DNA of 64,000 bases from Lineus longissimus (taxonomy: Eukaryota > Nemertea > Pilidiophora > Heteronemertea > Lineidae). The stretch spans positions 18,235,501 through 18,299,500 of the forward strand of contig NC_088310.1 of NCBI RefSeq assembly GCF_910592395.1, read 5' to 3'. Below are positions 1 through 62,632 of the stretch, piece after piece (position 1 is the first letter of the stretch; each line of letters opens with the position of its first letter). The notes below the pieces were generated by a model that searched no databases, was not told the DNA's origin, and was given only the letters and a program-made list of their open reading frames with translations. A program made the translations under genes and the position numbers.

Positions 1-359
1 CCTTAAGAACCGCTCCTATGGACGGTTCTTTCCTGTTCGCAGATTCTGTACAAGAGGCGGCTCAAGCACAGAAAGATTGGGACAAATTATATGCCCCCAC
101 TGCGACACAGAGGGCCAAGACCTCTCTACCTAACGCTAGAAAGATAGAGAGGCCCCAGCAGGCATCGGGTTCAATCCCGTACGCCAGGCAGGTCCTGCCT
201 AGGCCTACCCCGCCTAGTCAGCCTGCTCCTGCTGGATCCTTCCGACGGGAAGCGGAGGGTCGCCGGACTGGAAAGAGGAAAAATACTTCCTCTAACCAGG
301 GTGGATCCGGTCCGACTAAGCACTCCTTTCGCCCAAGGGGTGCTGGCCGGAAGAGGTGA
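1..359 (+). CDS. DIRS ORF1 (gag-like), C-terminal part
   Basis: The frame is open from the window edge to a stop at 357-359, and the first in-frame ATG is at 18. The predicted C-terminus is basic and rich in Pro, Arg and Gly, ending in a Gly-Arg-Lys-Arg tail, which suits a nucleic-acid-binding gag-like protein. It overlaps the downstream RT frame by about 59 bases (301-359). No conserved domain is recognisable in this fragment, so the call rests on its position ahead of the RT ORF. Most of the ORF lies left of the window. Confidence 0.55.
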   Translation, partial: LRTAPMDGSFLFADSVQEAAQAQKDWDKLYAPTATQRAKTSLPNARKIERPQQASGSIPYARQVLPRPTPPSQPAPAGSFRREAEGRRTGKRKNTSSNQGGSGPTKHSFRPRGAGRKR

Positions 360-2463
360 CTCCCCCCTCCTTTCTCCTCCCGGACGCAAAAAGGAGCCGA
401 CTCCGGTAGTCGGGGGCCGTCTGCAAAAATTTGCAGACATTTGGGACGATTGGTGCCCAAAGGGGTCCCCAGTCCCAAACATGTTGAGGTACGGAGTGAA
501 ACTAGATTTCAACCGTACCCCCCCGACTACCATATATCCAACCCCAGTTCAGCCACCGAAGGACCCAGTCAAGGCCTCTGCCCTCCAAGCAGAGGTCGCG
601 ACATTACTGGAGAAGCAAGCTATCCAGGTCCTTCAAGATCCATGCTCCCCCGGCTTTTACAGCCACGTTTTCTTGGTTCCCAAGAAAGCAGGGACATGGA
701 GGCTGATCATAGACCTTTCCAGGTTAAACACCTTCTTGAATGTTCCTCATTTCAAGATGGAAACCACCAGGTCTATAGCAACGGCGATACAGCCCAACGA
801 TTGGGCGGTATCGATGGATTTAATGGATGCGTACTTACATGTACCGATCCATCCAGACTATCAACACTTCCTTCGATTCCATTACGAAGGAAAGACGTAT
901 CAATTCAGGGCCCTGCCGTTCGGTCTGGCATCGGCACCCCTAATTTTTACGATGATAGTCACAGCCTTCGTCGCTCCCTTTCACGTGATGGGGTTCAAGC
1001 TCCATCACTACCTAGACGATTGGCTACTCCGTTGCAAATCGCGGGAACTACTACTGCAACAACTTCAGGTTCTAAAGCAAAAAGTAGTTTCCGCAGGTTG
1101 GATTATCAACGAAACAAAGTCAGAATTCATACCATCCCAAGACTTCGTTTACGTTGGAGTTCGGTTCCTTACGGCCATAGGGAAAATGCTGCCCCCCCTA
1201 GACAGGATAAAGAAAATTCTTCATCTCGTCGCAGAATTCAGAGGAAGGACTCAAGCTCCCGCAAGGCGATGCTTGAGCCTTTTGGGACTTCTGAATTCGG
1301 CAGCAGACCAAATCCCCCTTGGCCGTCTATATATGCGTCCCATCCAGATGTTTCTAATGTCTCTATGGAAACCCCACAGGGACCCATTAGACAAGTTGGT
1401 ATTGATACCTCAATACCTACTCAAGAACGTCTGGAACTTCTGGGAGTCGGAGACTCGTCTCCAAAGCGGTGTAGATCTTGCTCCACCGCCCCCAGAAGTG
1501 TCCCTGTTCACAGATGCTTCCCTACTAGGGTGGGGAGCACATCTGAACAACGGGGACATGTCCATAAGAGGTCTATGGACAAGGGAGGAGACCATTCTTC
1601 CAATAAATATATTGGAAATGAAGGCTGTCCTTCTTGCCGTGAGGGCTCTTTCCCTTCGCCTGAAGAATCGGAGAGTAACCCTGTTCTCCGACAATTCTAC
1701 AGTAGTAGCATATGTCAGGAGACAGGGAGGCACAAAGTCCGGCATTCTTTGCCAGCTAACTTGGGAGCTTTACCATCTTTGTGCCGACCTTGGAGTATCG
1801 ATATGTGCCAGACACATACCGGGCAATCGCAACATCCTTGCCGACGCCCTGTCCCGTCAGAACAAGCTAGTTCAGACAGAGTGGACACTCCATCAGGAGA
1901 TTGTAGACGACCTTTGTCGCCTTTGGCAATCTCCGAAGGTAGATCTGTTCGCCACCAGGCTGAACAATCGCCTTCCCATCTATTACTCTCCACTTCCGGA
2001 CGAAGAGGCCCTGGAAGTCGACAGCCTTACAGCCTCTTGGGTCGGGCTGAACGCATATGCGTTTCCACCCCTCCCTCTCATCCAACCAGTCCTGAACAAG
2101 ATCTTGACCAGCCATCCGGTGAGAATAACTCTCATCGCACCTTGCTGGCCAAATCAGGCCTGGTTCCCAGCCTTGCTGGAGCTCCTGATAGATCACCCCA
2201 GGAGTCTTCCTACTTGGAAGCACCTCCTGTGGCACCCCCTGGGGAGATGCTACCACCAGAACCCTGGATTTTTCAAGTTTCACGCCTGGAACTTATCCAG
2301 TTGCATCTCCACCAGAGAGGCTTTTCGGACATCGCTGTCAAGCGCATGTCCGCACCTCAAAGGGGGTCTACCCTTGATGTGTATCAAGGAAAGTGGTCTA
2401 CCTTCACTTCCTGGTGCAGGGAGAACGGAGTTAATCCGATCTCTCCCTCTATATACAGATTAG
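301..2463 (+). CDS. DIRS reverse transcriptase-RNase H polyprotein
   Basis: A 720-codon open frame. The RT domain spans roughly residues 85-260. It has a VPKKAGTWRLIIDLSRLN block, an aspartate-containing palm motif (SMDLMDAYLHVPI), the LPFGLASAP turn and the catalytic YLDD box near base 1010. RNase H follows at about residues 395-520, with FTDAS, an ILEMKAV block, FSDN and a final DALSRQ. Downstream are the DLFAT and YAFPP blocks usual in DIRS proteins. The frame has no internal stop over the catalytic region, so this copy may be recent or still active. The annotated start is the first ATG; the true start or recoding mechanism is unknown. Confidence 0.9.
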   Translation: MDPVRLSTPFAQGVLAGRGDSPLLSPPGRKKEPTPVVGGRLQKFADIWDDWCPKGSPVPNMLRYGVKLDFNRTPPTTIYPTPVQPPKDPVKASALQAEVATLLEKQAIQVLQDPCSPGFYSHVFLVPKKAGTWRLIIDLSRLNTFLNVPHFKMETTRSIATAIQPNDWAVSMDLMDAYLHVPIHPDYQHFLRFHYEGKTYQFRALPFGLASAPLIFTMIVTAFVAPFHVMGFKLHHYLDDWLLRCKSRELLLQQLQVLKQKVVSAGWIINETKSEFIPSQDFVYVGVRFLTAIGKMLPPLDRIKKILHLVAEFRGRTQAPARRCLSLLGLLNSAADQIPLGRLYMRPIQMFLMSLWKPHRDPLDKLVLIPQYLLKNVWNFWESETRLQSGVDLAPPPPEVSLFTDASLLGWGAHLNNGDMSIRGLWTREETILPINILEMKAVLLAVRALSLRLKNRRVTLFSDNSTVVAYVRRQGGTKSGILCQLTWELYHLCADLGVSICARHIPGNRNILADALSRQNKLVQTEWTLHQEIVDDLCRLWQSPKVDLFATRLNNRLPIYYSPLPDEEALEVDSLTASWVGLNAYAFPPLPLIQPVLNKILTSHPVRITLIAPCWPNQAWFPALLELLIDHPRSLPTWKHLLWHPLGRCYHQNPGFFKFHAWNLSSCISTREAFRTSLSSACPHLKGGLPLMCIKESGLPSLPGAGRTELIRSLPLYTD

Positions 2464-3353
2464 TTGATTTCCTTATTGAATTATTCACGGAAAGACAACT
2501 ATCTGTCACGGCTATAAAAGGGTACAAGTCCGCCATCGCTTCTACCCTCCGTGTTTTAAGCACCTGGGATCTTCGTTGGGAGGACCAAATAACCCCTCTT
2601 TTCAGAGGAATGTTATTAGAGCGTCCTAGACCGGTTCACAACACCCCTAAATGGGACCTCTCTGTTGTCCTTAAGGTGCTCATGAGGCATCCTTTTGAAC
2701 CCATGTCTATTTCATCCATGAAATATCTGACACTCAAAACGGTCTTTCTAGTAGCCTTGGCTACCGCCCAACGGAGATCAGAGCTCCATGCACTTTCTTT
2801 TAAGAAGCTGGCTTTTAGAGAGGGAGGGGAGGTTATCCTGGCTTTTATACCAGGATTTCTGGCGAAGAACCAGGGACCGGCCGCCTCTCGGCCCCCGGTT
2901 ACTATTCCCTCTCTGTCAGGAACGATCTCTTATGATCTTCCTGACAGAACTTTATGTCCCGTCAGGGCCCTAAAGTTCTACATAAATAGGACAAAACCTC
3001 CCGGTATCCGCCAGGGGAGAGAGCGTTTGTTTTTGTCCTATAAGGAGGGAAATAAACGAGAGATAGCGGCCGCCACTATTTCAAGGTGGATTGTGGAGAC
3101 TATTCGTCTTTCCTACAACACCTTGAAGACTTCCTCTGATCTTCGTGCGCTAGCTAACATCTCAGCACACGAAGTTAGAGCACTAGCCACCTCCTGGGCT
3201 AACTACCGAGGAGTTGCTCTTCAAGAAGTCGTTTCCGCTGCATGTTGGAGTAATCACTCCACATTCTCTCGTTTCTACCTACGAGACGTTTCTTCCCTCG
3301 TAGATGGCATGCACACAATCGGCCCGATTGTGTCTGCGGGGCATGTTGTTTGA
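2244..3353 (+). CDS. DIRS tyrosine recombinase
   Basis: This region matches the YR domain that replaces a DDE integrase in DIRS elements and performs site-specific insertion of the circular intermediate. The catalytic tetrad is visible: Arg in QRRSEL (about 2772), His-x-x-Arg in AHEVRAL (3168-3179) and the nucleophilic Tyr in FYLRDV (3276-3278). A SAM-like N-terminal DNA-binding part precedes it (about 2340-2560). The frame is open from 441, but only the part from about 2244 looks like recombinase; upstream it overlaps the RT ORF in another frame. The start shown is the approximate beginning of homology, not a verified initiation site. Confidence 0.85.
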   Translation, partial: EMLPPEPWIFQVSRLELIQLHLHQRGFSDIAVKRMSAPQRGSTLDVYQGKWSTFTSWCRENGVNPISPSIYRLVDFLIELFTERQLSVTAIKGYKSAIASTLRVLSTWDLRWEDQITPLFRGMLLERPRPVHNTPKWDLSVVLKVLMRHPFEPMSISSMKYLTLKTVFLVALATAQRRSELHALSFKKLAFREGGEVILAFIPGFLAKNQGPAASRPPVTIPSLSGTISYDLPDRTLCPVRALKFYINRTKPPGIRQGRERLFLSYKEGNKREIAAATISRWIVETIRLSYNTLKTSSDLRALANISAHEVRALATSWANYRGVALQEVVSAACWSNHSTFSRFYLRDVSSLVDGMHTIGPIVSAGHVV

Positions 3354-45434: not shown

Positions 45435-48400
45435 TTAAGAGGCAAATTGAGGTCTCTTTATTCCTAGCGAGTAGCATATATCGTTACATGTCGGATGTTG
45501 ATGACTCCAAAAGGCGTCAACACCCTTTTTACCAAGGTTGCCAGTAACAAATGCGGTCTTCAGAGGTTCTGAATTAATGGCCGGGTCTGTGAAAATGATG
45601 GTGCCTTTTTGGTCCCGGGGCAACCAGCCCTGAAGGTCTGTCACCAGTATCCTGCCTTCAGACTGCTCCCATGTAAAGTGCATAAAGGCTAGAGACACGT
45701 CCACAAGTTTCTTAGTTAATCTTGGGTTGACGTACGTGAAGTTGTTGGTCACTTTGACAAAATCTGATCCCTCCACGAACGGCTCAACATTAAACAAATA
45801 AACTATGTCCTTGTGGTCATCCGACAAAAGTTGGATGTGCGCTGCAGGGACAAACTGGATCTTCCAGGCCGGATTGTCGTCCTTGACCGCCTGGTTGAAC
45901 AGGGCCACGAAATGGCGCGCCGTCATCTGGCAGACGACATCCTGGTAGTACAAATGCAGCTTCTTCCGCTTGGCATCTCGGTAGCTCTTGCCAACGTATC
46001 TATCAAGACAAAGAACATCTGGTGAATTAAAAGACGCATCTAAAAATGGACACCGTATCAGAGAGATATTTTCAAGCGCTTGCTGCAATTCGACCTCAGA
46101 GTAGATAGATTGTCTATTTCTGTGTCCGGATGTACCCTTTAATTTGTTACCTTGCTTTTGGTTCATCCTGATTGAGATACTGAAGTTTGATGACGTCCCG
46201 CATGGCTCCCTTGCGACGAACGTCCAGCTCCTCATCGACGTAGACCAGCGTTGTCGAGCAAGTCCATGTATTGTGGGCAGCGTCGAATTTAAACACCCGG
46301 GCACCTGGGAAATACATGTGTAGATTCTTGAAATTACGGCCGGTCCCTGGGGGCGGACACCGAGGACTAGAGATGCCCCGGCGGCGTCCACCAGACTGCC
46401 AGCGGCACATGGACAACAACACAGACAGAAGTTTTCTTTCTATCTGGTAACACACAAGTTAATATTCAGTGCACGAGACTTGAATTTGAATTTCAGTCAA
46501 TCGTCAGCATGGAAATAATTTCCATTTTAAAACCTTTCTTTTAATGAAACAACTCTGAATTTCTTCTATATAAAAGGAAAAAAGGACGAGATTTCAGTTC
46601 AATAGCCTAAAAAATATATCTCAGCGGCCAGTTAACCCGTCGCAGTACCTGTATATGTTTGTTTCAGTCAGAATTATTGGTGATACCGTCTTCAGTGACA
46701 AAATTGACGTCATAACCTTTGTCGATACACGTACATGTACTCACTTATGCCATTGAGGAAATACTCAGAAGTTGGAATCATGATGTGCCAAGTAGATACT
46801 TACGATGAACACCCAACGGTATCTCGCCTGTCTTTAAGGCGTGACCTTGGCGGGAATCAGTCATCACGATATTAGCGGAAGGATTCATTGTCTGTCCAGG
46901 CAATGCAGAGAGGGTGCAGTCTACGAATGAGCTTATTGGGCTCACTGGATCAGGCACGAGGAACGTCTTCGGGAGTTGTGTGGGTTTGTCTTCGAGGTAC
47001 ATCGGTTGGACACTCTCAACGTACTCGTCAATTTCGACCCCTTGTTCGTGACTCGCGATGGACACATCCTCTGTCTTTGGATTCATCAAGCCTTGCGTTG
47101 ATCCACTGTAACCTGTATCTACAGATGAACCATCAACACCCAAATGATCAGCAAGAGAAGCAGCTTCATGCGGCAGTTCAAACTGTCCTCCGAGACTACC
47201 AGTCCCAGAAGCAGTTTCTACGACATTATTGGCGCTCGGAAGCCCCAGGCAATGCGATGCGACAGGCGGGCGAACTACCGCAGGAGTGCCGGTCTCTTCA
47301 TTCTGACCTCCGCCAGATTTGGTCATCTGCTGAAACTGACCTTCTCTATCTCCCACTTTAACTGCTATCCCTGTGTCTCGATACCTTGACGAGTCTGCTG
47401 TCTCTGGCTGTCGTCGTCCTGATGGTTGAGTGTCAGCCTCTGGGTCCATAAGAGTAGGTGCTACTGACAAACTCACTGAGATGGAAGTTATCTTTTCCGA
47501 GAGATCAGCGACTGAAGTGTCTCCTTCTTGTTCACCATTCCATGCAGTGGAGCCAATAGCATGTCTGTTAGCTCTTGTATTGAAACGGGTGAGTCGAGCT
47601 CGAGTACCCGAGCGGTTGTGCTCGGTCACCACAGGAGTAGCAGCCGCTGGTTGTCGTTCGGATGGCTTGGTGTCGGCCTCTGGATCCGTAAGTGTAGGTG
47701 CCAAGCTCCCAGAGATGGAACGAACACATGTCGTTGCAGATTCTTCCATGGCCCTTTCGTTTTGATTGTCTTTCCTTGGAGTGGCAGCACCAGTAGCATG
47801 TCTCTTAACCCGGGTGCGGAAACGGGACAATGGCGCTCGACTGTTGGCTGTCTCCTCAGGATGGGATACCACCTGAGTGCCTATCTGGTTAGGGGTCGAT
47901 GCCACAGATTCTCGGAGAGTCGGGTACCGGTATTCATAAGCTGGTAGGTTGAGAAACTCATTAGTTTCAGGAGCACTGACAGTTTGTCGCGGTAGTTCCA
48001 GCAAGTCATGGACTTTATGGATTGCTTTGACAAAGTTCTCCTCGAGAGGAACAGCGTCAGTAGCGGCGCAGTGATGATCATAAATGATCATGCAGTTCTT
48101 TTCGATCTCAATAGCTTTCGAGATTGCTCCTGGGGTAGCCATCAGACAGTAGGCTATGAAACATTGGTACACAGCGCATGTGAATTCATACAGCTGCTCT
48201 CGACTCGTGAGTTTATTCAATGATAGGTGTCCCTTGAGACTCATCTTGAGGTCGTTGAGAGCCTGGGTGATCAGCTTAAGCCGGTCTTCCTGAGGCAGTG
48301 TGATCACGAACATGAGCAACACCTCGCCAGCCCTTCGCTGGAAGAATGGAATGAAATCAGTCTCAGAAAATGTGAGGAAAAAAACTTGTGACCAGTCAGG

Positions 48401-51078
48401 GTTGTCGCCAATTTGGGGAGATTCGCACTCACACCCACAGAATCGACTGTGCCCCAGATACCGAAGTCGTTTCCGCCGTAACTCGATTTGCGAGTTGCCC
48501 CTAGATTTAGTTGCGTCGCATAAAGATTTAAGAGTAATACCTAGACTATTTAGCACTACTCGACCACCGGGATGTGCCCCCAAAGATGTGGTAGGCCTGC
48601 TGCCATAATTGTTCACACCAGAATGCAAAACTGTTCGAATCACCAATTGATGGCTATACTAGCTAATAGTAGAATCAGAGTATTTCAATGAATTCATTTA
48701 AAGAAGACAAGCAGTCTTCGTGATTGTGACTATGTCTTTTGTGATTGTGATTGTGACTATGTCTGCCCGCTTACCGTATGCCTCGCGAAGAAAAATGGGT
48801 CGAATCTAGTCAGCCAGGCAGCCTGTCTGTTCGCAGCATAGGCCTCTTCAAGGGGATGGTTATAGCGGCACGCATACTTCAGCAGCATCTGCTTGAACTC
48901 TGAATGAGAGATGTTTCTTAGGGCATCTGAGAGGATGCCCAACGAGGAGCTTATTCCTTTTTGGTCGGGCTTGGGTAGGCTGTTGTATCTCCGGATAGAC
49001 TCGAGGATAAGGTCTGCAGCTTCCAACCAAAGACCTATATACAAGAACATGAGGGACAGAAAAAATAAACAAGCACTCACTTGATATCAATTAACGAAGT
49101 GTTTTTGTGTAATCTAGTCGATTTCCGCAATCCGATTCGACGAAAGAGCACTCCGCCTAGCCATCTGTATATAACTGAACACATGTACTTGACTTTAAAC
49201 TTGAGGATGCATTGCAGTATAGCTTGCACGTTCACACTTGCACTTTTGAAAAGCCTGCTGTCATTTCCAGTTCTGTTCAAAATTACATGAGAACAGCTTA
49301 TTCTCAGGTGCAAATTCGCAGCTAAGTCACACCTCTGGCCAGTATCCCGCAAAAGAAGCCACGGACCAGGTAGGTCTTCGTATCTCTGGCCAGTATCCCG
49401 CCAGATAGGCCATGGACCGGGTAGGACTTCGATCAAATCTCTGGCCAGTATCTCGATAGCGAGAAGCCATGGACCGGGTAGGACTTGCATGTCTTTGGTC
49501 CTCGGCCAAAATAATGATAGTATAAGTAATAGCTTACCGAGATTATGTCTGATAACTCCTTTCACCTGGACGCATGTTGCGTGAACAATGTTGTACTGGC
49601 TCTCCTCCTTATAGTGCCATTGCTCTGGAAGGACAAATTGAGTACAATGACCATCTTGACCCATAGGTTTTCAATCCACTCCGCCAACCCGGACTCCGTG
49701 ACACAAAAGGGAAGGGAGTTTAAAGATGTAGTACCTCTGATGGTTCAGAATGACATGGACCTACAGTCCAATACAGAGTTCTCCTGAAGCAGATCTTTCA
49801 GTTTTTTTGGGTGCAACATAGCTCCTTACTTTATACAAAGGTTAGATAGTACAAAACCAAGATGAAACGTCTGCAGATATAACAGGCATATCAGAGAAGA
49901 CGCAAGAGACCTGGATGTGCCCTGATGAAAGTTGGTCTCCAACAACGCCATCTGTGGACGCATAAGCTGGAAAGTAGAGTTTTGAAAGACCCGGGGCATT
50001 CCATTTCGTCATCCTATTCATGAAGTACGAGGCCGGTCCACTGCGTCCGGAGTGTAAGTTTTAAAGGTGTGACCAACCTTTATGTCCCTTCTCTGAGAGA
50101 ATGAAATCGAGCGTCTTGTCCGCATCTTGGAGAGAGCCCCCGTCTTTGAGGAACCTTGCCTTTCTTAGGTAGACCTGTGGCGCGATGGCCGTGGTGGGCG
50201 CCTGCTGTTTGATGTCGTCCACCTTGTCGAGGATGTATTTGGAGTTACCATGCAAATACATCAACCGATCAAGCAGGAGGGCGACTGACGCGGCCGTCTC
50301 GAAGGCCTTCTCTGAATAGGCAAGTTCAAGACATTCCTGGAACAAAAAAACAACAACATTAGAAATATTAATTTCAATCACGCCATAGTACGGCGTTCGA
50401 GTCAAACTTGATAGACACGTTATTTCAGCAACCATTTCGATACATGTACATGTACCGGGACATATCACTTGTTGCAGTTAAAAAGTTCGAATTTCCTGTG
50501 TCACCTAGACTCCATTGCAGTCCATTTCGTCATCCCTATCGTTTTTCCTCGTTGGGCGACAGGGCGCGCGGCGACTATAGGACGAGGTCGGTCCTCTGCG
50601 TCCGGGGTATGGGAGTCACCGGGGTTCAAAGAAGTTGACCCGCCTGACTGCTGCATGCCGATTTCGGCGTTCTAAGTCAGCCTTGTCTTAGTGAAGGACT
50701 GAAAAAAATACCGATGGGCATCGAATAATGGTGACGCCAATGAGATTCGCACTGCCTCTCTAATCAAGACTGCATTCTGCAATTCATGCTAGATTTGTAC
50801 AACTCGGCGATTAAGGGGGCATGCAAAACAACCTTCAGAACATCCTCCTCCGTCATATCAGGATACACTGCATTCTTGGACTGGATGAGGTCATTGATGT
50901 TGACGATCTCCTTCTTATTGTCCGGCTCGAACTGCCACTCCTCGAAGACGAATGGCCAAGATTGGTCCTCAGCCTCGCGAACTAACTGCTGGAGTTTCGG
51001 CGACAGCGCGCTGAACAATTCCTTCAATGTCTTGTGTTGCGAGGAGGAATTCTTCAGTTGCACCCCAGCTCCTTTCAT
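45435..51078 (-). CDS. ALPK1: ALPK1-like alpha-kinase, predicted ADP-heptose receptor
   Basis: Exons in transcription order: 50833-51078, 50078-50336, 49538-49624, 48775-49034, 46804-48337, 46151-46304, 45435-45999. Phases join to 1034 residues (human ALPK1: 1244). The N-terminal helical domain (about residues 20-400) matches ALPK1, including WPFVFEEWQ, LLDR, IAPQVYLRKAR and PKPDQKGISSSLG. A disordered linker (about 410-780) follows. The C-terminal kinase (about 797-1034) has RYVGKSY, TDLQGW, TDPAINS, GNLGKKG and the zinc-binding HPTCNDICYSLG end typical of alpha-kinases. ALPK1 binds bacterial ADP-heptose in the cytosol and then phosphorylates TIFA to start NF-kB signalling (known in mammals). 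The first ATG is chosen as start; vertebrates have about 20 more N-terminal residues, so an upstream exon is possible. The donor of the first exon (GTTGTT) is weak. A TIFA-like gene lies immediately upstream on the same strand. Confidence 0.92.
47429..47686 (-). other. ALPK1-like linker repeats with DPEADT motifs
   Basis: Two DPEADT(K/Q)PS motifs at 47669-47686 (Thr507) and 47429-47446 (Thr587) lie 80 residues apart. Each is preceded by APTL-x and, about 50 residues earlier, by a basic RF-x-TR-x-x-RHA-x-G motif (Arg456, Arg535). The linker therefore contains a tandem duplication of an approximately 80-residue module. The DPEA-x-T(K/Q) motif also occurs in the neighbouring TIFA-like proteins. 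Confidence 0.75.
49331..49485. repeat. Three-copy ~53-bp repeat in an ALPK1-like intron
   Basis: CTCTGGCCAGTATC-CG followed by GCCATGGACCGGGTAGG occurs three times in a row. The open frame across it is a repeat artefact. Confidence 0.8.
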
Positions 51079-51099
51079 TTCAATTCGTGGACGGGAACT

Positions 51100-51786
51100 G
51101 AAATGAGTGATTTGAAAAAACCGTCACAGAGTTGAAGCTGAGACGACTGAATCATTAAAGGTATAGATGTCCGGAGATGCAACATACCGGTCTCCGCCCG
51201 AGCGGATGGTGTTTCGAACCAGCAGCCCGGAAAACGTATTGTCCCGGGAGTGTCGTCAAGCCAGTGTCATAAAGACGGCCGTCTTGAATGTAGACTTGGC
51301 ACAAGTTGAGACTTGCTGGACAGACTGGGGCAGTGGGACTGGTCATGTGCTCGTGTTGCAGTTATACATGCATATTTGAAGTGGACAAATGATTCATGAC
51401 GAATGAACTCGGTGCATGTTGACAGCGGTAGAACATGCAGACATAATTGACCCTGATGGTGATATTGATAACCTATTAATACTGACTATCGGAATCTTTT
51501 TTCCGCGGGCCGTTCATGATATACTTATCGATTATACGCCAAATCATACTGCACATTTGCCTGCAGAAATTCGGATAGAAACAGACTTGGTTAAACCGAC
51601 CGCACTCGATTTCCGGAAAAGCAAGCAGAAATAATTTGCCCGTCACGAACGTCACTTTCGGACATCGGTGTTGAGTATGATCAAGAAGATTATCAAGAGC
51701 TCCATGACACTTTTGTTGAAGAACTCTCGTGAGATCGATACATATGGTGTAAAAGAAATTACTCCGACACAGAAAGTGGCATGATA
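51100..51786. other. Spacer between ALPK1-like and TIFA-like genes
   Basis: About 0.7 kb with the presumed ALPK1-like promoter or leader. An acceptor-like TTTCAG at 51100 could join an upstream non-coding exon to the first coding exon. No other coding region seen. Confidence 0.4.
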
Positions 51787-51792
51787 TTTATT
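51787..51792 (-). terminator. Polyadenylation signal of TIFA-like A
   Basis: AATAAA on the minus strand, 312 bases after the TIFA-like A stop and before the ALPK1-like start. It argues for separate transcripts. Confidence 0.6.
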
Positions 51793-52103
51793 CCATTTTT
51801 ACATGTTTTAACAGAGAGCAAAAGCATATCCTTAAACAATTTTGATACATGCATAGAGTGAATCACCTCAACATTTCTTCTAATGCGTCTTGTGAGACTC
51901 TGGATTAAATCTTTGGATTACGAAGCAAATGAACGACACTTTAACACTCCTACGACACGTCGTTCTCTACAATAAACTCGGCAAGGCGCCGTCGCGACTC
52001 TCCACTGAGCTGATGGAACCTTGTGAGAGATATCATCAAAGCAAGACAGTCGCGACGGATCTGATAAACTTTACAGTACCACTTCATGACAGAGAGACAA
52101 TGC

Positions 52104-53084
52104 TTATTGTTGGAAGGCATCATCACCAAGACACCTTCTGGCTGCCTCTTGTGACACATTGCGTGAGAGGGAACACTGCACGGGCGCATTTAGCTGTGAA
52201 CCTGGTGTATTCATTGCGAAGTCTAAGTTCGAGTCAGCTTTAAATGTTACCTCGAATATGTAACTACTCCATCTATTTGACGTCTCCACGCACAACAAAA
52301 AGTCCATGCTTTGCCCTTCACCGTACTTAGAATCAAGATCACGAATACGCAATCGTGATACCAGGGGAAGTCGTCTGCTTTCATCCAGTCCTAAAGTTTC
52401 TTCATTTAGGAAAACCTTCTTAAGCCTGCTCAGGTTTTTAAAAACGAAGTACCACTCGTCCGATTTGTGGACAAGTGTCAATGAAAATTGTCTTTGTGAA
52501 ATCGTCGTGTCATTAAGTTTTACCTGGACACCCCCTGAAGGTGCAAGTCTGCCAAACACCATTACCCCGTCACCTATCACTTTATCCTTCGGGTAGAATT
52601 CTTTCAATCGTTTTGGCGTGAGAGGCGAGTAGCTGAAAACCACCTTGTTCTCGTCCGTCCCGCCACCCAGTTGAACTTGTGTTTCAGCCTCCGGATTCTC
52701 TTCGACGACAATACCACTATCCGCCACGGAATTGTCCTTTTCTAATCCACTGCTGGGAACACCTAACTTAACCGAGACATCTCTCGAAGAAAAATCATTT
52801 CGCGGTTTTGCCCTTTTTTCGTTGTCACATCCCGCATTAGCCGTATTCGCCACATCTACATTAACTTTCGTGTCGGCATCGTGGTCTACTTCTATGATAT
52901 TATGTCTCCCCGCATCTTCAATTGATGCGGCTCGCCGGGGTTCCTCTTCTTTCGTGTCCGCATCGGGGTGTACTTCTATGATATTATGTCTCCCAGCACC
53001 TTCGGCTGATACGGCTCGCCGGGGTTCCTCTTCTTTTGTGTAGGCCTCTGGGTCCTCCTCTACAATGTCACGCCCCGAATCCAT
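52104..53084 (-). CDS. TIFA: TIFA-like FHA adaptor, copy A
   Basis: 326 residues from one coding exon (acceptor at 53110; ATG at 53084). An earlier in-frame ATG lies before the acceptor and is not used. The C-terminal half (about 148-285) is an FHA domain with TIFA features. Gly178-Arg179 (FGR), Ser196 in ISQRQFSL and Lys216-Asn217 (FKNLS) correspond to human Gly50-Arg51, Ser66 and Lys88-Asn89, which bind phospho-Thr9. The usual FHA histidine is Gln, as in TIFA. The acidic N-terminal half contains four motifs of the form Asp/Glu-Ala-x-Thr-Lys/Gln (Thr16, Thr44, Thr72, Thr135) resembling the EDADTEE of human TIFA. In mammals ALPK1 phosphorylates Thr9, TIFA multimerises and recruits TRAF6. No TRAF6-binding PxExxE is seen at the C-terminus. 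Human TIFA is 184 residues; this one is longer through its N-terminal tail. A general FHA protein remains possible. Confidence 0.82.
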   Translation of the reverse strand: MDSGRDIVEEDPEAYTKEEEPRRAVSAEGAGRHNIIEVHPDADTKEEEPRRAASIEDAGRHNIIEVDHDADTKVNVDVANTANAGCDNEKRAKPRNDFSSRDVSVKLGVPSSGLEKDNSVADSGIVVEENPEAETQVQLGGGTDENKVVFSYSPLTPKRLKEFYPKDKVIGDGVMVFGRLAPSGGVQVKLNDTTISQRQFSLTLVHKSDEWYFVFKNLSRLKKVFLNEETLGLDESRRLPLVSRLRIRDLDSKYGEGQSMDFLLCVETSNRWSSYIFEVTFKADSNLDFAMNTPGSQLNAPVQCSLSRNVSQEAARRCLGDDAFQQ

Positions 53085-53586
53085 CCTAATATTCTCAACT
53101 TCGAAACTATCTATAAGAGACAAGACCACTAATGAATATTCATAGGTTGGAGGTCTATCAATTAGACGAGTGCATGTTTTTAACTCTAAAGTACATATTT
53201 GGAGAGGCATTGAAAAAATATTTGTTGTGGCAAGTCTACAGATATAAAGAAATTATTTGATGAAAAAATTAATTTCGAATTTTGCTAATTTGGTAATAGG
53301 GGGCGTGTTTTGAGATTTTTCTGCCAGTTGGGTGAAAAGAGTGGAAATATCAATGTCTGTCTAATTTGTCGATTATCAAAAAATTTCCGTGGTCAACTAC
53401 CAGTTTATTTTTCACCATTTACTTGCCCGACTGTCCGGAATATCATATCAAAATTTCAGATTCACAGCCCCACGCAGCATTTGATGCGTCGCGGTCAAAC
53501 ATTGACAATTTAACTGCTAAAAGGCTTAAAAAATCAATGGTGGTCTTGTCTCATAAAGCGATAAAACTAGATTGTTGTTTACTCAC

Positions 53587-53633
53587 CATGTACTCGACTT
53601 TAGACTGCAAATGGCGCTCGGTAGAATCACGAC
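53587..53633 (-). other. Putative 47-nt non-coding exon of TIFA-like A
   Basis: Bounded by TTTTAG and GTGAGT. Acceptor, donor and length are kept in the other palindrome arm (61352-61398). In the frame that would join the coding exon it has a stop, so it can only be leader. Confidence 0.4.
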
Positions 53634-54494
53634 CTAAAAATTTAACAGAGACACATATTAATCAAGATAGTAATCAGAGTATTTATAAAACGCAGACTTG
53701 AATCTATAACCGCCCCATAAACTTTAAACTAGTTGTACACATTAATGTGCAAGTATTTATTCCAGAAAACTGTGTTTTTATGTCTTGTGTATCTCACACT
53801 ACATTTTCCAGGTCACAGCACTTGGTGCGGTTAATTGTCAAACGGAACTTTTTTCATGCTTCATGAACACTAGAAATGTGCTTAGAAATGAAGTTTCGTT
53901 TTAGAATTTGTGGCACCAACAGAAAACCATGTTTCTTGGGTAAATCGGGGGTGCTCTTTCCAAAAATGAGGTTTTCTGGAGCCTATTTTTAGGTTGTGAA
54001 ATATAGGTCTGTGGAGGAAGTGATAAAATGTCAGACAAATGGAGTAGATTAATGCAGGCCGGTGCAGAAGTAGAAAGTGTCTCCCTGGGAAAAGTGTCCG
54101 GTCCTACTTTATTCTGACGCATTATGGTCCATGGTTCTCTTGATGCCATGACTGTCAACACCTCAGATATTAAAAGGACATTTTAAACTTCTACACCGGC
54201 AATTATTAGAATAAATGACGAAATCGGAGTGTATCTATAATACATGTACCAATAAACTCTCCGTTCCACTGTTCAGATATCATTCTTCGGAGTGGTCAGT
54301 ATATTAGTGTCACGCAGACACAAACTGACGGTACACTCTGGACGCCGTGGATCAGCGTCGTCTCTCCCCTGGGAAGACTATGAAAGGACTGTCTCACGAA
54401 TCTTACCGACGGGCTGTCAATTTGCCCCGCGGATTGTTTACAAATTCGCGAGGGGGGGGGGGCAGAAATAGAAGCTTTCAAAGACAACACTTAC

Positions 54495-55216: not shown

Positions 55217-55619
55217 CCCGTTGATGACATCTACCATAGGCCCAAATGTGTTCAGTTCATGCTGTGCCAGCTATGGTGAGTCTGTATGATACAGGCAGAG
55301 GTTGGCTGATGTACAATGTGCTCGATGGCTGTGTAGGCTGCATCCAGTGCAGAGGAACAATCTGCACACCCGGGATCGCGAAGCTCAAGTGACTGGAAGA
55401 CGGCGTTCCTCCATTAAAGATACAGACTCTATTTCCAGGTAACTGAAGCCAATTGTGGGCATCCCCAGGATAGCCAGCTGGAGACGAGAACATCCAGGTG
55501 CTCTAGCCAGATTCGAGGACATGACACTAGTCCGACGAAACGCACACCAAGGACCTCTAGTGGGGTTACTTGGCCCGAGAACGGTACACATCTTCAGTAG
55601 ATCAGTATCGATCTGTCCA

Positions 55620-58600
55620 CTAAATATACAACCAGACCTCAAGCAGGTTGTTGGGGCCGAGGACAGTAATAGTCCAATGAAGGCACATCACCAGCAGGTC
55701 ATTGGAGTCAGTCTCTGTCCACGAATACACACCCAGAACCACCAGCAGGTGATTGGGGCAGAGGACAGTAATTGTCCAATGAAGGCACATCACCAACAGG
55801 TTATTGGAGACGAGGACAATACTTTTGCAAAGAAGAGACATCCTCCGTGGATCAGTCTCTGTCCACGAATGCACAGCGAGAACCTCCAGCAAGTGATTGG
55901 GGCCGAGGACAGTAATTGTCCAATGAAGGCACATCACCAGCAGGTAATTGGAGACGAGGACAGTCCTTTCCCAATGAAGAGACATCCTCCGTGGATCAAA
56001 ATCTGTTCACTGAATGCACACCCAGAACCTCCAGCAGGTCATTGGGGCCGAGGACAGTAATTGTCCAATGAAGGCACATCACCAGCAGTTCAATGGAGAC
56101 GAGGACAGTACTTTTCCAATGAAGAGACATCCTCCGTGGATCAGTCTCTGTTCACGAATGAACACCCAGAACCTCCAGCAGGTCTTTGGGGCCGAGGACA
56201 GTAATTGTCCACTGAAGGCACATATCTGTCCACTGAATCCAATGGACACCCAGAATCTCAAGCATGTTGTTGGAGCTGAGGACGGTAATTGTCTAATGAG
56301 GTCGCATCTCCAGAGGAAAAGTCTGTGTCCACGAATGCATACCCAGAACCACCAGCAGGTGAATGGGGCCGAGGACAGTACATTTCAAATGAAGAAACAT
56401 CCTCCGTCGATCAATATCTCTTCAATGAATGCACACACAGGACCTCCAGCAGGTCATTGGAGCCCAGGACAGTACTTGTCCAATGAAGGCATATCACCAG
56501 TGGAACAGTACCTGTCAAATGAATGCACACCCAGGACGTCCAGCAGGTTATTGGAGACGAGGACAGTCCTTTTTCAATGAAGAGACATCTTCGTGGATCA
56601 GTATCTGTTCACTGAATGCACACAAAGGACATCCAGCAGGTCATTGTGGCCAAGGACAGTACTTGTCCAATGAAGGCATATCACCAGTGGAAGAGTATCT
56701 GTCAAATGAATACACAACCAGGACCTCCAGCAGGTCATTGGAGCCGAGGACAGTACTTGTCTAATGAAGACACATATCTGTCTACTGATTCCAATGGACA
56801 CCCAGAAACTCCAGTATGTTGTTGAAGCTGAGGACAGTACTTGTCCGATGAAGGCATATCTCCTGTCCGATGATGGCACACCAAGGACATCCAGTAGGTT
56901 ATTGGTGCCGAGGACAGTACTTGTCCAATGAAGAGACATCCCCGTGGATCAGTCTCTGTCCACGAATGCACACCCAGAACCTCCAGCAGGTCATTGGGGC
57001 CGAGGACAGTAATTGTCCACTTAAGGCACATCAACAACAGGTTATTAGAGACGAGGACACTACTTGTCCAATGAAGAGACATCCTCCGTGGATCAGTCTC
57101 TGTACACGAATGCACACCCAGAACCTCTAGCAGGTCATTGGAGCCGAGGCCAGTACTTGTCCAATGAAGGCATATCACCAGTGGAACAGTATCTTTCAAA
57201 TGAATGCACACCCAGGACGTCCAGCAGGTTATTGGAGACGAGGACAGTCCTTTTCCAAGGAAGAGACATCCTCCGTGGATCAGTATCTGTTCACTGAATG
57301 CACAGCCAGGACCTCCAGCAGGTCATTGGGGCCGAGGCCAGTACTTGTCCAATGAATGCATATCACCAATGGAAGAGTATCTGTGAAATGAATGCACACC
57401 AAGGACCTCCAGCAGGTTGTTGGGGGCCGAGGACAGTACTTGTCTAATGAGGTCACATCTCCAGACGAAAAGTCTGTGTCCACGAATGCCTAGAACCACC
57501 AGCAAGTGATTTGGGCCGAGGACAGTAATTGTTCAATGAAGGCACATCACCAGCAGGATTTTTGAGACGAGGACAGTACTTTTCCAATGAAGATACATCC
57601 CCCGGGGATCAGTCTCTGTCCACAAATGCACGCCCAGAACCTCCAGCAGGTCATTGGGGCTGAGGACAGTAATTGTCCAATGAAGGCACATCACCTGCAG
57701 GGTATTGGAGACGAGGGCAGTACCTTTCCAATGAAGAGAGATTCTCCGTGGATCAGTCTCTGTCCACGAATACACACCCAGAACCTCAAGCAGGTCATTT
57801 GGGCCGAGAACAGTACATTTCCAATGAAGAGACATCCCCGTCGATCATTATCTGTTCAGTAAATGCACCCCCAGGACCTCCAGCAGGTCATTGGAACCGA
57901 GGACAGTACTTATCTAATGAAGGCAAATATCTGTCTACTGCTTACAATGGACACCAAGAACCTCAAGCATGTTGTTGGAGCTGAGGAAAGTACTTGGCCA
58001 ATGAAGGCATATCTCCTGTCCGATGATGGCACACCCAGGACATCCAGTAGGTTATTGGGGCCGAGGACAGTACTTGTCCATTGAGGTCACATCTCCAGTG
58101 GATAAGTCTCCGTCCACGAATGCATACCCAGAACCTCCAGTAGGTCATTGGGGCCGAGGACAGTACTTGTCCAACGAAGGCATATCACCAGTAGAACAGT
58201 ATCTGTCAAATGAATGCACACCTAGGACGTCCAGCAGGTTATTGGAGACGAGGACAGTCCTTTTCCAATGAAGAGACATCCCCCGGGAATCAGTCAGTCA
58301 ATGATGCACACCCAGAACCTCCAGCAGGACATTTGGGCCGAGGACAGTAATTGTCCAATGAAGGCACATCAACAACAGGTTATTGGAGACGAGGACAGTA
58401 CTTTTCCAATGAAGAGACATCCCCCGTGGATCAGTATCTCTCCACTGAAAGCATAGCCAGAACTTCCAGCAGGTCATTGGGGCCGAGGACAGTAATTGTC
58501 CAATGAAGGCACATCAACAACAGGTTATTAGGGACGAGGACACTACTTTTCCAATGAAGAGACATCCCCCGTCGATCAGTATCTCTTCACTGAATGCACA

Positions 58601-58760
58601 CTAAGAATCTCCAGCAGGTCATTGGAGCCGTGGCCAGTACTTGTCCAATGAAGGCATATCACCAGTGGAGCAGTATCTGTTAAGTGAATGCACACCCAGG
58701 ACCTCCAGCAGGTCATTGGGGCCGAGGACAGTACTTGTCCAATGAAGGCATATCACCAGT
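55620..58760. repeat. Composite minisatellite, forward orientation
   Basis: A higher-order unit of about 140-145 bp made of two related halves. Each half contains CAGCAGGT-ATTGG-G-CGAGG, ACAGTA-TT-TCCAATGAAG and either GGCACATCACCAG or AGACATCCTCCGTGGATCAG. Homogenisation is imperfect and some units are truncated. Open frames of up to 200 codons result from the repeat. Confidence 0.9.
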
Positions 58761-59720
58761 GTGCATTCGTGGACAGAGACTGATCCACGGGGGGTGTCTC
58801 TTCATTTGTAAAGTAGTGTCCTCGTCTCCAATAACCTGCTGGTGATATGCCATCATTGGAAAATTACTGTCCTCGGCTCAAATGACCTGCTGGAGGTTCT
58901 GGGTGTGCATTCGTGGACAGAGACTGATCCACGGGGATGTCTCTTCATTGGAAAAGTACTTTCCTCGTCTCCAATAACCTGCTGGTGAGGTGCCTTCATT
59001 GGACAATTACTGTCCTCAGCCCCAATGACCTGCTGAAGGTACTGGGTATGCATTCGTGGACGGAGACTTGTCCTCTTGAGATTTGACCTCATTAGACAAG
59101 TTTTGTCCTTAGCCCTAATAACCTGTCCTGTAACTGGATGTCCTGGGTGTGCAATCATCGGACAGGAGATGTGTCTTCATTGCACAAGTACTGTCCTCGG
59201 CCCCATTCGCCTGCTGGTCGTTCTTGGTATCCATTCGTGGACACAGACTTTTCCTCTGGAGATGCGACCTCATTAGACAAGTACGGTCCTCAGCTCCAAC
59301 CACATGCTTGAGGTTCTTAGTGTCCAATCGATTCAGTGAACGATATGTGCCTTCATTGGACAATTACTGTCCTCCGCCTCAATGACCTGCTGGAGGTCCT
59401 GGGTGTGCATTCAGTGAACAGATAGTGATCGACGGAAGATGTCTCTTCATTGGGAAAGTACTGTCGTCGTCTCCAATAACCTAATGGTGATATGCCTTCA
59501 TTGGACAATTACTGTGCTCGGCCCCAATGACCTGCTGGAGGTTCTGGGTGTGTATTCGTGGACAGAGACTGATCCACGGAGGATGTCTCTATATTGGAAA
59601 AGTACTGTCCTCGACTCCACTGACCTGCTGGTGATGTGCCTTCATTGGACAATTACTGTCCTCGGCCCCAACAACCTGCTTGAGGTCTGGTTGTGTATTT
59701 AGTGGACAGATAGATACTGA
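58761..59720. repeat. Composite minisatellite, inverted orientation
   Basis: The same units as to the left, now reverse-complemented (CTTCATTGGA-AA-TACTGTCC, CCTCGGCCCCAATGACCTGC). The switch at about 58761 marks the palindrome axis. About 1 kb remains here against 3.1 kb on the left. Confidence 0.9.
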
Positions 59721-60822: not shown

Positions 60823-61351
60823 GTAAGTGTTGTCTTTAAAAGCTTCTATTTCTGCCCCCCCCCCCCTCGCGAATTTGTAAACAATCCATGGGGCAAATTG
60901 ACAGCCCGTCGGTGAGACTCGCGAGGCAGTCCTTTCGTAGTCTTCCCAGGGGAGAGACGACGCTGATCCACGGCGTCCAGAGTTTACCGTCAGTAAGTGT
61001 CTGCGTGACACTAATATACTGACAACTCATTTTTGGAAAGAGCACCCCCGATTTACCCAAGAAACATGGTTTTCTGTTGGTGCCACAAATTGTCAAACGA
61101 AACTTCATTTCTAAGCACATTTCTAGTGTTCATGAAGCATGAAAATGTTAAGTTCCGTTTGACAATTAACCGCGCCAAGTTCTGTGACCTGGAAAATGTA
61201 GTGCGAGATGCACAAGACATAAAAGCACAGTTTTCTGGAATAAATACTTGCACATGTGTACAACTAGTTTAAAGTTTATGGGTTCAAGTCTGCGTTTTAT
61301 AACTACTCTAATTACTGTCTTGTTTAATAGGTATCTCTGTTTTATTTTTAG

Positions 61352-61398
61352 GTCGTGATTCTACCGAGCGCCATTTGCAATCTAAAGTCGAGTACATA
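61352..61398 (+). other. Putative 47-nt non-coding exon of TIFA-like B
   Basis: Counterpart of 53587-53633 with conserved TTTTAG acceptor and GTGAGT donor. The ATG at its end in copy A is ATA here. Confidence 0.4.
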
Positions 61399-61900
61399 GT
61401 GAGTAAACAACAGTCTGGTTTTATCGTTTTATGAGACAAGACCACCATTGATTCTTTAAGCCTTTTAGCAGTTAAATTGTCAATGTTTGACCGCGATGCA
61501 TCAAATACTGCGTGGGGCTGTGAATCTGAAATTTTGATATGATATTCCGGACAGTCGGGCAAGTAAATGGTGAAAAATAAACTGGTAGTTGACCACGGAA
61601 ATTTTTTGATAATCGACAAATTAGACAGACATTGATATTTCCACTCTTTTCACCCAACTGGCAGAAAAATCTCAAAACACGCCCCCTATTACCAAATTAG
61701 CAAAATTCGAAATTAATTTTTTCATCAAATAATTTCTTTATATCTGTAGACTTGCCACAACAAATATTTTTTCAATGCCTCTCCAAATATGTACTTGAGA
61801 GTTAAAAACATGCACTCGTCTAATTGACAGGCCTCCAACCTATGAATATTCATTAGTGGTCTTGTCTCTTATAGATAGTTTCGAAGTTGAGAATATTAGG

Positions 61901-62632
61901 ATGGATTCGGGGCATGACATTGTAGAGGAGGACCCAGAGGCCTACACAAAAGAAGAGGAACCCCGGCGAGCCGTATCAGTTGAAGGTGTTGGGAGACATA
62001 ATATCAAAGAAGTAGACCCCGATGCGGACACGAAAGAAGAGGAACCCCGGCGAGCCGTATCAATTGAAGATGCGGGGAGACATAAGGTGGTTTTCCGCTA
62101 CTCGCCTCTCACGCCAAAACGATTGAAAGAATTCTACCCGAAGGATAAAGTGATAGGTGACGGGGTAATGGTGTTTGGCAGACTTGCACCTTCAGGGGGT
62201 GTCCAGGTAAAACTTAATGACGCGACGATTTCACAAAGACAATTTTCATTGACACTTGTCCACAAACCGGACCAGTGGTACTTCGTTTTTAAAAACCTGA
62301 GCAGGCTTAAGAAGGTTTTCCTAAATGAAGAAACTTTGGGACGGGATGAAAGCAGACGACTTCCCCAGGTATCACGATTGCGTATTCGTGATCTTGATTC
62401 TAAGTACGGTGAAGGGCAAAGCATGGACTTTTTGTTGTGCGTGGAGACGTCAAATAGATGGAGTAGTTACTTATTCGAGGTAACATTTAAAGCTGACTCG
62501 AACTTAGACTTCGCAATGAATACACCAGGTTCACAGCTGAATGCGCCCGTGCAGTGTTCCCTCTCAGCCAATGCGTCACCAGAGGCACCCAGAAGGTGTC
62601 ACAGTCTTGATGATAATGCCTTCCAACAATGA
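61901..62632 (+). CDS. TIFA: TIFA-like FHA adaptor, copy B (shortened)
   Basis: 243 residues, single coding exon with acceptor at 61874. The FHA domain (about 63-200) is complete, with Gly93-Arg94, Ser111 and Lys131-Asn132 intact. Compared with copy A it lacks 85 residues (A positions 62-146) in frame, so only two Asp/Glu-Ala-x-Thr motifs remain (Thr16, Thr44). It gains two residues near the C-terminus. The frame is open despite the large deletion, and many differences between copies are conservative, so it may still function. Homology to copy A ends 27 bases after the stop, and the copy A polyadenylation signal is absent. Confidence 0.8.
   Translation: MDSGHDIVEEDPEAYTKEEEPRRAVSVEGVGRHNIKEVDPDADTKEEEPRRAVSIEDAGRHKVVFRYSPLTPKRLKEFYPKDKVIGDGVMVFGRLAPSGGVQVKLNDATISQRQFSLTLVHKPDQWYFVFKNLSRLKKVFLNEETLGRDESRRLPQVSRLRIRDLDSKYGEGQSMDFLLCVETSNRWSSYLFEVTFKADSNLDFAMNTPGSQLNAPVQCSLSANASPEAPRRCHSLDDNAFQQ

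Follow-up and report, generated by a model that had tools for sequence, protein, structure and literature searches.

Mammalian innate immunity has a branch that came to light only recently, the pathway of ADP-heptose, ALPK1 and TIFA. In human cells ADP-heptose is reported to activate the kinase ALPK1, after which TIFA is phosphorylated at Thr9 and the phosphothreonine is bound by another FHA domain (PMC10723048; PMC9704527). Both TIFA and ALPK1 were said in 2025 to be absent from invertebrate lineages (PMC12457700), and a search of the titles and abstract beginnings of open-licence papers brought up, among the matches listed, nothing on an invertebrate ALPK1-TIFA system or on the linker motif described below. 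Here we describe a stretch of 64,000 nucleotides (the window; NC_088310.1, positions 18,235,501 to 18,299,500) from chromosome 3 (C3) of the nemertean Lineus longissimus, a protostome, in which a TIFA-like adaptor gene, T1, lies approximately 1 kb upstream of an ALPK1-like kinase gene, K1, on the same strand. Judged by their sequences, these proteins contradict the claimed absence from invertebrates, plainly so in the case of ALPK1. They suggest that the known system occurs here in a new variant, a many-armed alarm pathway for bacterial sugars. A sequence-only reading of the window had noticed that threonine motifs resembling human Thr9 are multiplied in the adaptor and also present in the kinase linker, and at the sequence level this observation is confirmed as real and conserved.

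The K1 model comprises seven exons on the minus strand, from 51078 to 45435, joined by six GT-AG introns and encoding 1034 amino acids. Exon 1 (50833..51078) contains the start methionine and N-terminal domain sequence matching PDB entry 5z2c, exon 2 (50078..50336) the pocket residues equal to human R116, R150 and R153, and exon 4 (48775..49034) those equal to D231, K233 and F295, with Ser in place of T237. For exon 3 (49538..49624) the acceptor is that of the NCBI-annotated paralogue P0002; an alternative 30 nt upstream is possible, and the P0002-type choice reproduces the numbering of Thr507 and Thr587 in the linker. The large exon 5 (46804..48337) encodes the last part of the N-terminal domain together with the linker and its two repeats, and the alpha-kinase domain begins in exon 6 (46151..46304) and runs through exon 7 (45435..45999) to the stop codon. 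For the last exon Pfam returns PF02816 (E 5.8e-34), and in the PDB the kinase exon is closest to human ALPK1 chains (E 1.7e-34 and 3e-34; next family 4.4e-12), which places the domain in the ALPK1 subtype. In the first K1 model the N-terminal 431 residues are similar to 5z2c, the ADP-heptose domain of the human protein (E 4.7e-35), so that a helical N-terminal domain with the ADP-heptose pocket is present as well. Eight of nine pocket positions are identical to human (61, 67, 116, 150, 153, 231, 233, 295), the ninth, T237, being Ser in both K1 and P0002. Three of the nine, R153, K233 and T237, have been named as ALPK1 pocket residues (PMC10723048). By these features K1 is an ALPK1-like kinase, and two Lineus proteins, P0002 and P0003, are indeed called alpha-protein kinase 1-like in the NCBI annotation, where ALPK1-like names also occur in Branchiostoma. 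The AlphaFold2 model of P0002 has a helical N-terminal domain and a linker predicted to be disordered, since pLDDT stays below 50 throughout residues 399-789 (in most blocks at 20-30), where one short helix is the sole secondary structure; the overall mean pLDDT of this model is 42, from an alignment of only five sequences.

T1 (52104..53084, minus strand) is a single open frame of 326 amino acids with a tail (residues 1-147), an FHA domain (52236..52652, minus strand) and a short C-tail. In the FHA domain G178, R179, S196, K216 and N217 correspond to human G50, R51, S66, K88 and N89, so that all five residues checked are kept, as had been stated for those that bind phosphorylated Thr9. In human TIFA the changes T9A, G50E, R51A and S66A are reported to abolish condensation (PMC10865109). 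Kinship with TIFA is indicated by a vertebrate-free profile (five Lineus sequences and P0001, a related adaptor of 299 amino acids), for which TIFA chains are the six best of 19 PDB matches (E 2e-4 to 2e-3), and by an hhalign comparison of the adaptor profile with ten vertebrate TIFAs (E 2.3e-8, probability 95.3). The AlphaFold2 model of T1 has a mean pLDDT of 41, with core blocks at 68-82 and the tail below 50. In a fold search with this model the eight best matches, with E values of 1.4e-3 to 7.8e-3, were TIFA or TIFA/TIFAB entries, and no match fell below 1e-3; as the TM-scores by target of these eight were 0.40-0.48 and the model alignment included vertebrate TIFAs, this support is weak. 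A Pfam search of T1 alone gave no match, and the Pfam FHA family was matched by three of the six adaptor family members, T1 not among them (best E 0.0028). By sequence, then, T1 has a TIFA-type FHA domain with the phosphothreonine-binding residues, and acidic threonine sites of the ALPK1 type N-terminal of it. P0001 was the sole match to T1 in the public protein search (one among 1690 candidates), and T1 seems to be unannotated in the database searched. Scans of viral contigs gave 25 and 83 pattern matches, none of which was confirmed as a relative of either the adaptor or the kinase.

The T1 tail contains four sites, DPEAYTK at Thr16 (53034..53054), HPDADTK at Thr44 (52950..52970), DHDADTK at Thr72 (52866..52886) and NPEAETQ at Thr135 (52677..52697), all on the minus strand; re-derived from the gene models, these and the two kinase sites fall on the same six residues as in the sequence-only reading. 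The accompanying statement that human TIFA has a single ALPK1 site needs correction, as Thr177 is also reported to be phosphorylated by ALPK1 in vitro (PMC9704527). With the pattern [DE]A[DENY]T, which was derived from T1 and in which N at position -1 was allowed only after the diverged paralogue T6 had been seen, the number of sites far exceeds the mean of 20,000 shuffles: four against 0.048 in T1, four against 0.050 in T2, three against 0.025 in T3, two against 0.017 in T4, three against 0.040 in P0001 and three against 0.024 in T6; T2 is 98% identical to T1, so these two are not independent. P0001 has DPEADTK three times and T6, of which the FHA region is 36% identical to that of T1, has DSDADTK, DSEANTK and DDDAETH. 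Thus, several Thr9-like sites are found in each of the five Lineus adaptors examined that have no frame damage (T1-T4 and T6). We infer that three sites are the older state of the tail.

The K1 linker contains two internal repeats 80 residues apart, as had been proposed, with the common block APTL-x-DPEADT-x-PS; the motifs are DPEADTK at Thr507 (47666..47686) and DPEADTQ at Thr587 (47426..47446), both on the minus strand. DPEADT, seen twice there, had a mean of 0.0 in 20,000 shuffles. Among the paralogous kinases K3 has the same two motifs as K1, K2 and K4 have EPEADTK and DPEADTR, and K5 has lost one repeat and retains DPEADTQ. At the nucleotide level GAYCCNGARGCNGAYACN (DPEADT) was matched ten times in the 391-Mb genome, searched on both strands, and eight of the matches listed lie in the ALPK1/TIFA cluster, seven in linker exons (two each in K1 and K3, one each in K2, K4 and K5) and one in T3; since the seven linker matches are in paralogous copies, the independent events are fewer than eight, namely the linker repeats and, separately, the adaptor. 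The two matches outside the cluster are at C1:24860286 (minus) and C9:17888968 (plus), and the reversed control pattern was matched once genome-wide. The longest word that the K1 linker shares with the tail of T3 or P0001 is the seven-residue DPEADTK, while 300 shuffles reached six at most; T1 and the K1 linker have only DPEA in common. Beyond DPEADTK the flanks are unlike (KLEEPRR or KEEEPPV against KPSERQP). The coding DNA had also been described as alike (GA-CCAGAGGC-ACAC), which is true of Thr16 and of both kinase sites and fails for Thr44, Thr72 and Thr135. Gene conversion between adaptor and kinase was considered and rejected, because there is no likeness in the flanks and Thr16 alone among the T1 sites has the DNA string.

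The linker motif is conserved in relatives, closely in one and more loosely in amphioxus, and the lack of conservation that the sequence-only reading had named as a possible refutation was thus not observed. P0004, a 433-residue fragment that agrees with K1 at 52% of 239 aligned positions, has DPQADTQ once and, nearby, DPEAPIQ without the threonine. The amphioxus linkers P0005-P0007 contain DP.[AG].T three times each, where 0.015-0.027 would be expected, together with a fourth DP/NP...TT variant, and the K1 linker contains it twice (expected 0.024); this pattern was widened after the amphioxus and human forms had been seen. In the human ALPK1 sequence used here the linker has DPEGET (provisionally Thr791) and DPDAST (provisionally Thr850), and the parts that flank the linker agree with the PDB; the open-licence papers searched did not mention this peptide. 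A search that needs no preset pattern, run over all gapped three- and four-residue patterns that the linkers of K1, B. lanceolatum and human ALPK1 have in common, ranked DP.A.T first, a level reached in none of 300 shuffles, and with the human sequence left out DP.A.T came second, again with no shuffle of 300 reaching it.

The gene pair and its cluster, the pocket and FHA residues, and the positions, recurrence and genomic concentration of the motif allow the following mechanism to be proposed. Cytosolic ADP-heptose would bind the helical N-terminal domain of K1 and switch on the alpha-kinase domain, which would then phosphorylate the Asp/Glu-Ala-x-Thr sites, two to four per chain, in the disordered tail of the adaptor. 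Each phosphothreonine could serve as a ligand for another adaptor's FHA domain and, with one FHA domain and several sites per chain, a branched network would form. In this way a multi-site tail could replace the intrinsic dimerisation to which vertebrate TIFA owes its bivalence. The linker motif would most likely be autophosphorylated and also serve the FHA domain of the adaptor as a phospho-docking point, with the active kinase as the seed of the network. The parts of this proposal differ in strength. The tail is probably a multi-site substrate, and for phosphorylation of the linker sites by the kinase itself we see an even balance; these two together are the simplest fit to the sequences. 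That the adaptor docks on the phosphorylated linker is an attractive idea, since one peptide occurs in both writer and substrate; we put it forward tentatively, with more doubt than confidence. The whole, a nemertean sensor of the ALPK1-TIFA type with a multi-site tail, linker autophosphorylation and docking, falls slightly short of an even chance. Human TIFA with the T9S change is reported to be phosphorylated and yet does not signal (PMC9704527), which means that threonine, the residue conserved in the worm motifs, matters for the reader domain.

A number of observations weigh against this mechanism. The TRAF6 motif P-x-E-x-x-(aromatic/acidic) was found in none of the five adaptors scanned (T1-T4 and P0001), whereas the same scan located it at position 176 of human TIFA. 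The dimer-interface residues S43, Q73, K76, E86, Y105, N107, K108 and D110 are all changed in T1, and among the nine interface positions checked in one MAFFT alignment only K88 is kept; the list is from published work, in which some contacts are main-chain (PMC7083832). T1 is named TIFA-like for these two reasons. The loss of dimer residues, taken with the several sites per chain, suggests that valence may have moved from dimerisation to the tail. The sites themselves also depart from Thr9: T1 and T4 have Tyr at position -1, and all 12 vertebrate TIFAs fetched of the 120 listed have Glu at +1 and +2, where the worm sequences have mostly Lys at +1. No amphioxus TIFA was named among the matches listed (the best 120 of 129, with human TIFA in the query alignment); the named entries were vertebrate proteins, nearly all called TIFA, and many were without a name. 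In the kinase P0003 the position of T237 is Ala. When each linker is counted once DP.A.T drops to rank 16, and every one of 300 shuffles has a best pattern that equals or exceeds its score; the Lineus-amphioxus signal therefore rests on recurrence, and copies of the motif within a single linker may be duplicates. Among K1-K5 one of 12 motif columns is variable, against 50 of 387 other linker columns, but linker blocks drawn at random are kept just as well (as good in 0.51 of the pairs), and conservation among these copies was rejected as evidence because they are too alike. Finally, the human data do not favour a necessary docking role. Linker-free human ALPK1 (residues 1-473 and 959-1244) is reported to form an ADP-heptose-dependent complex, the split enzyme still being active (PMC10723048), and ALPK1 was found not to co-localise with the condensates of TIFA, from which the authors concluded that ALPK1 does not drive TIFA condensates by multivalent contacts; N89A TIFA still condenses (PMC10865109). 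The multivalent reading is supported in part, by the kinase-adaptor pair, the pocket, the FHA residues, the multi-site adaptors and the persistence of the linker motif in P0004 and, more loosely, in amphioxus, and its docking step, if held to be essential, runs against the human results.

The same human results bear on the explanation that survives best beside our own, that the motif is a substrate motif only. A preference of the kinase would then account for both occurrences, and the linker sites would be autophosphorylated for tuning of activity or turnover, with no binding of the adaptor. Human ALPK1 is reported to autophosphorylate, at unmapped sites (PMC10113258), its linker is dispensable (PMC10723048) and the two proteins do not co-localise in human cells (PMC10865109). 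In addition, the threonine is followed by other residues in the linker (K/Q/R-P-S) than in the tail (K-E-E, K-V-N and Q-V-Q among them), as it would be if the kinase alone read the part before it. However, that DPEADTK is identical in T3, in P0001 and in the linkers of K1 and K3 goes further than a preference seems to need, since around Thr9 the 12 vertebrate TIFAs fetched differ from one another at -1 and -2. We regard this explanation as a possibility of some weight, though on the doubtful side.

Another explanation is that one tail site is functional and that the others merely came along when parts of a loose, disordered tail were duplicated in tandem. The T1 tail does contain an 84-bp tandem repeat (52865..53041, minus strand; 28-residue unit, 2.1 copies, 89% matches), which is the probable source of one extra T1 site and presumably of the corresponding one in T2, and T4 has only two sites. 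Three sites recur, however, in T3, P0001 and T6, the last with a different spacing in spite of its distant FHA region, and the motif accounts for three of the four threonines in the T3 tail and for both in that of T4. Duplication as the sole cause of the multiple sites was rejected on account of T6 and P0001, and drift of this kind is improbable. About as improbable is docking of a third protein, by which the motif would be read unphosphorylated or after the action of another kinase. The TRAF2-type motif [PSAT]-x-[QE]-E, for example, would accommodate T-K-E-E, which is present at Thr16 and Thr44 of T1, T2 and T4 and at the Thr16 site of P0001; moreover, since none of the five adaptors scanned has a TRAF6 motif, recruitment must take another route. 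T-x-[QE]-E is nevertheless missing from T3, from the third site of T1-T3 and P0001 and from the linker sites, for which a TRAF reading was rejected. Chance likeness of acidic disordered stretches, although T1 and the K1 linker share only a four-residue word that shuffles yield too, was rejected by the shuffle counts and by the genome-wide distribution, eight of ten DPEADT matches lying in one 0.2-Mb cluster (seven of them paralogous), and is very improbable.

A bolder form of the multivalent mechanism would extend it to Bilateria: ALPK1 linkers would carry a DP-x-[AG]-x-T module that is self-phosphorylated and read by the TIFA FHA domain, making the sensor both writer and nucleation seed of the TIFAsome. 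The module is counted twice in the nemertean, three times and once as a variant in amphioxus and twice in human; we consider this extension unlikely. If it were true, the unmapped autophosphorylation sites of ALPK1 would have a name (human Thr791 and Thr850, in provisional numbering), and the nemertean sensor and one adaptor paralogue would have kept an identical DPEADTK. The shared peptide provides concrete candidates for ALPK1 autophosphorylation sites and kinase-adaptor docking in worm and human, and it suggests that valence per chain is exchangeable in evolution, a dimer with one site against a tail with several. That a protostome has the two genes, ALPK1-like and TIFA-like, side by side dates the pair at least to the bilaterian ancestor, unless the genes moved sideways.

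The pair belongs to a larger cluster. In the genome (391,118,348 bases) there are ten alpha-kinase matches, of which eight lie within 18.28-18.44 Mb of C3, the other two sharing a C1 locus that reads by eye as eEF2K-like; the linker exon was recognised in five of the eight cluster copies, K1-K5 (tblastn, E <= 1e-3). T1 and T4 lie inside the window and T2 and T3 outside it, while T5 (C3:18408477-18408934, minus) is degraded, with the tail start and FHA end in different frames and the middle missing. T4 (61901..62632, plus strand; 243 amino acids) is an inverted paralogue with the sites DPEAYTK (61931-61951) and DPDADTK (62015-62035), both on the plus strand. Frames flanking T1 and T4 are 93% identical over 113 residues in opposite orientation (53336-53698, plus, and 61311-61649, minus), because of which the adaptor seems to sit in an inverted duplication. 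T6 (C3:5670524-5671456, plus; its start is a guess) is far from the cluster, and the genome-wide alpha-kinase search gave no match near it. Between T1 and T4 there is a large tandem array with nested 51-, 94- and 144-bp units (55612-59710), and a K1 intron holds a 51-bp tandem repeat in 2.9 copies (49333-49486). At C3:18389374-18394068 (plus) a 1565-residue open frame fuses a retroelement-like polyprotein, BEL/Pao by eye only, in frame with an ALPK1 alpha-kinase exon. On the plus strand at 148-3350 two long open frames of 771 and 997 residues overlap, possibly a mobile element.

Compared with known systems, K1 resembles vertebrate ALPK1 in its helical N-terminal domain, long disordered linker and C-terminal alpha-kinase domain, in RYVGK with the catalytic Lys (human K1067) and in the adjoining TIFA-like gene, human TIFA and ALPK1 being neighbours as well, at 4q25. 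It differs in the two 80-residue DPEADT repeats of its linker, in Ser for T237 and in the eight kinase-domain matches of its cluster. Amphioxus ALPK1 (P0005-P0007) has the same architecture as K1 and a linker with repeated DP-S-A-x-T, which in contrast to K1 lacks an acidic residue at -1. The worm adaptors share with vertebrate TIFA the FHA domain with G50, R51, S66, K88 and N89 and an acidic threonine site N-terminal of it, but have two to four sites where TIFA has a single N-terminal one, usually with Lys at +1 in place of Glu, lack the TRAF6 motif in the five scanned and, in T1, show a changed dimer interface. The general class is that of multi-phosphosite scaffolds with an FHA or SH2 reader, in which many phospho-sites on a disordered chain are served by one reading domain. 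Unlike that class, the worm system has closely similar motifs in the chain that carries reader and sites and, through its linker, in the writer.

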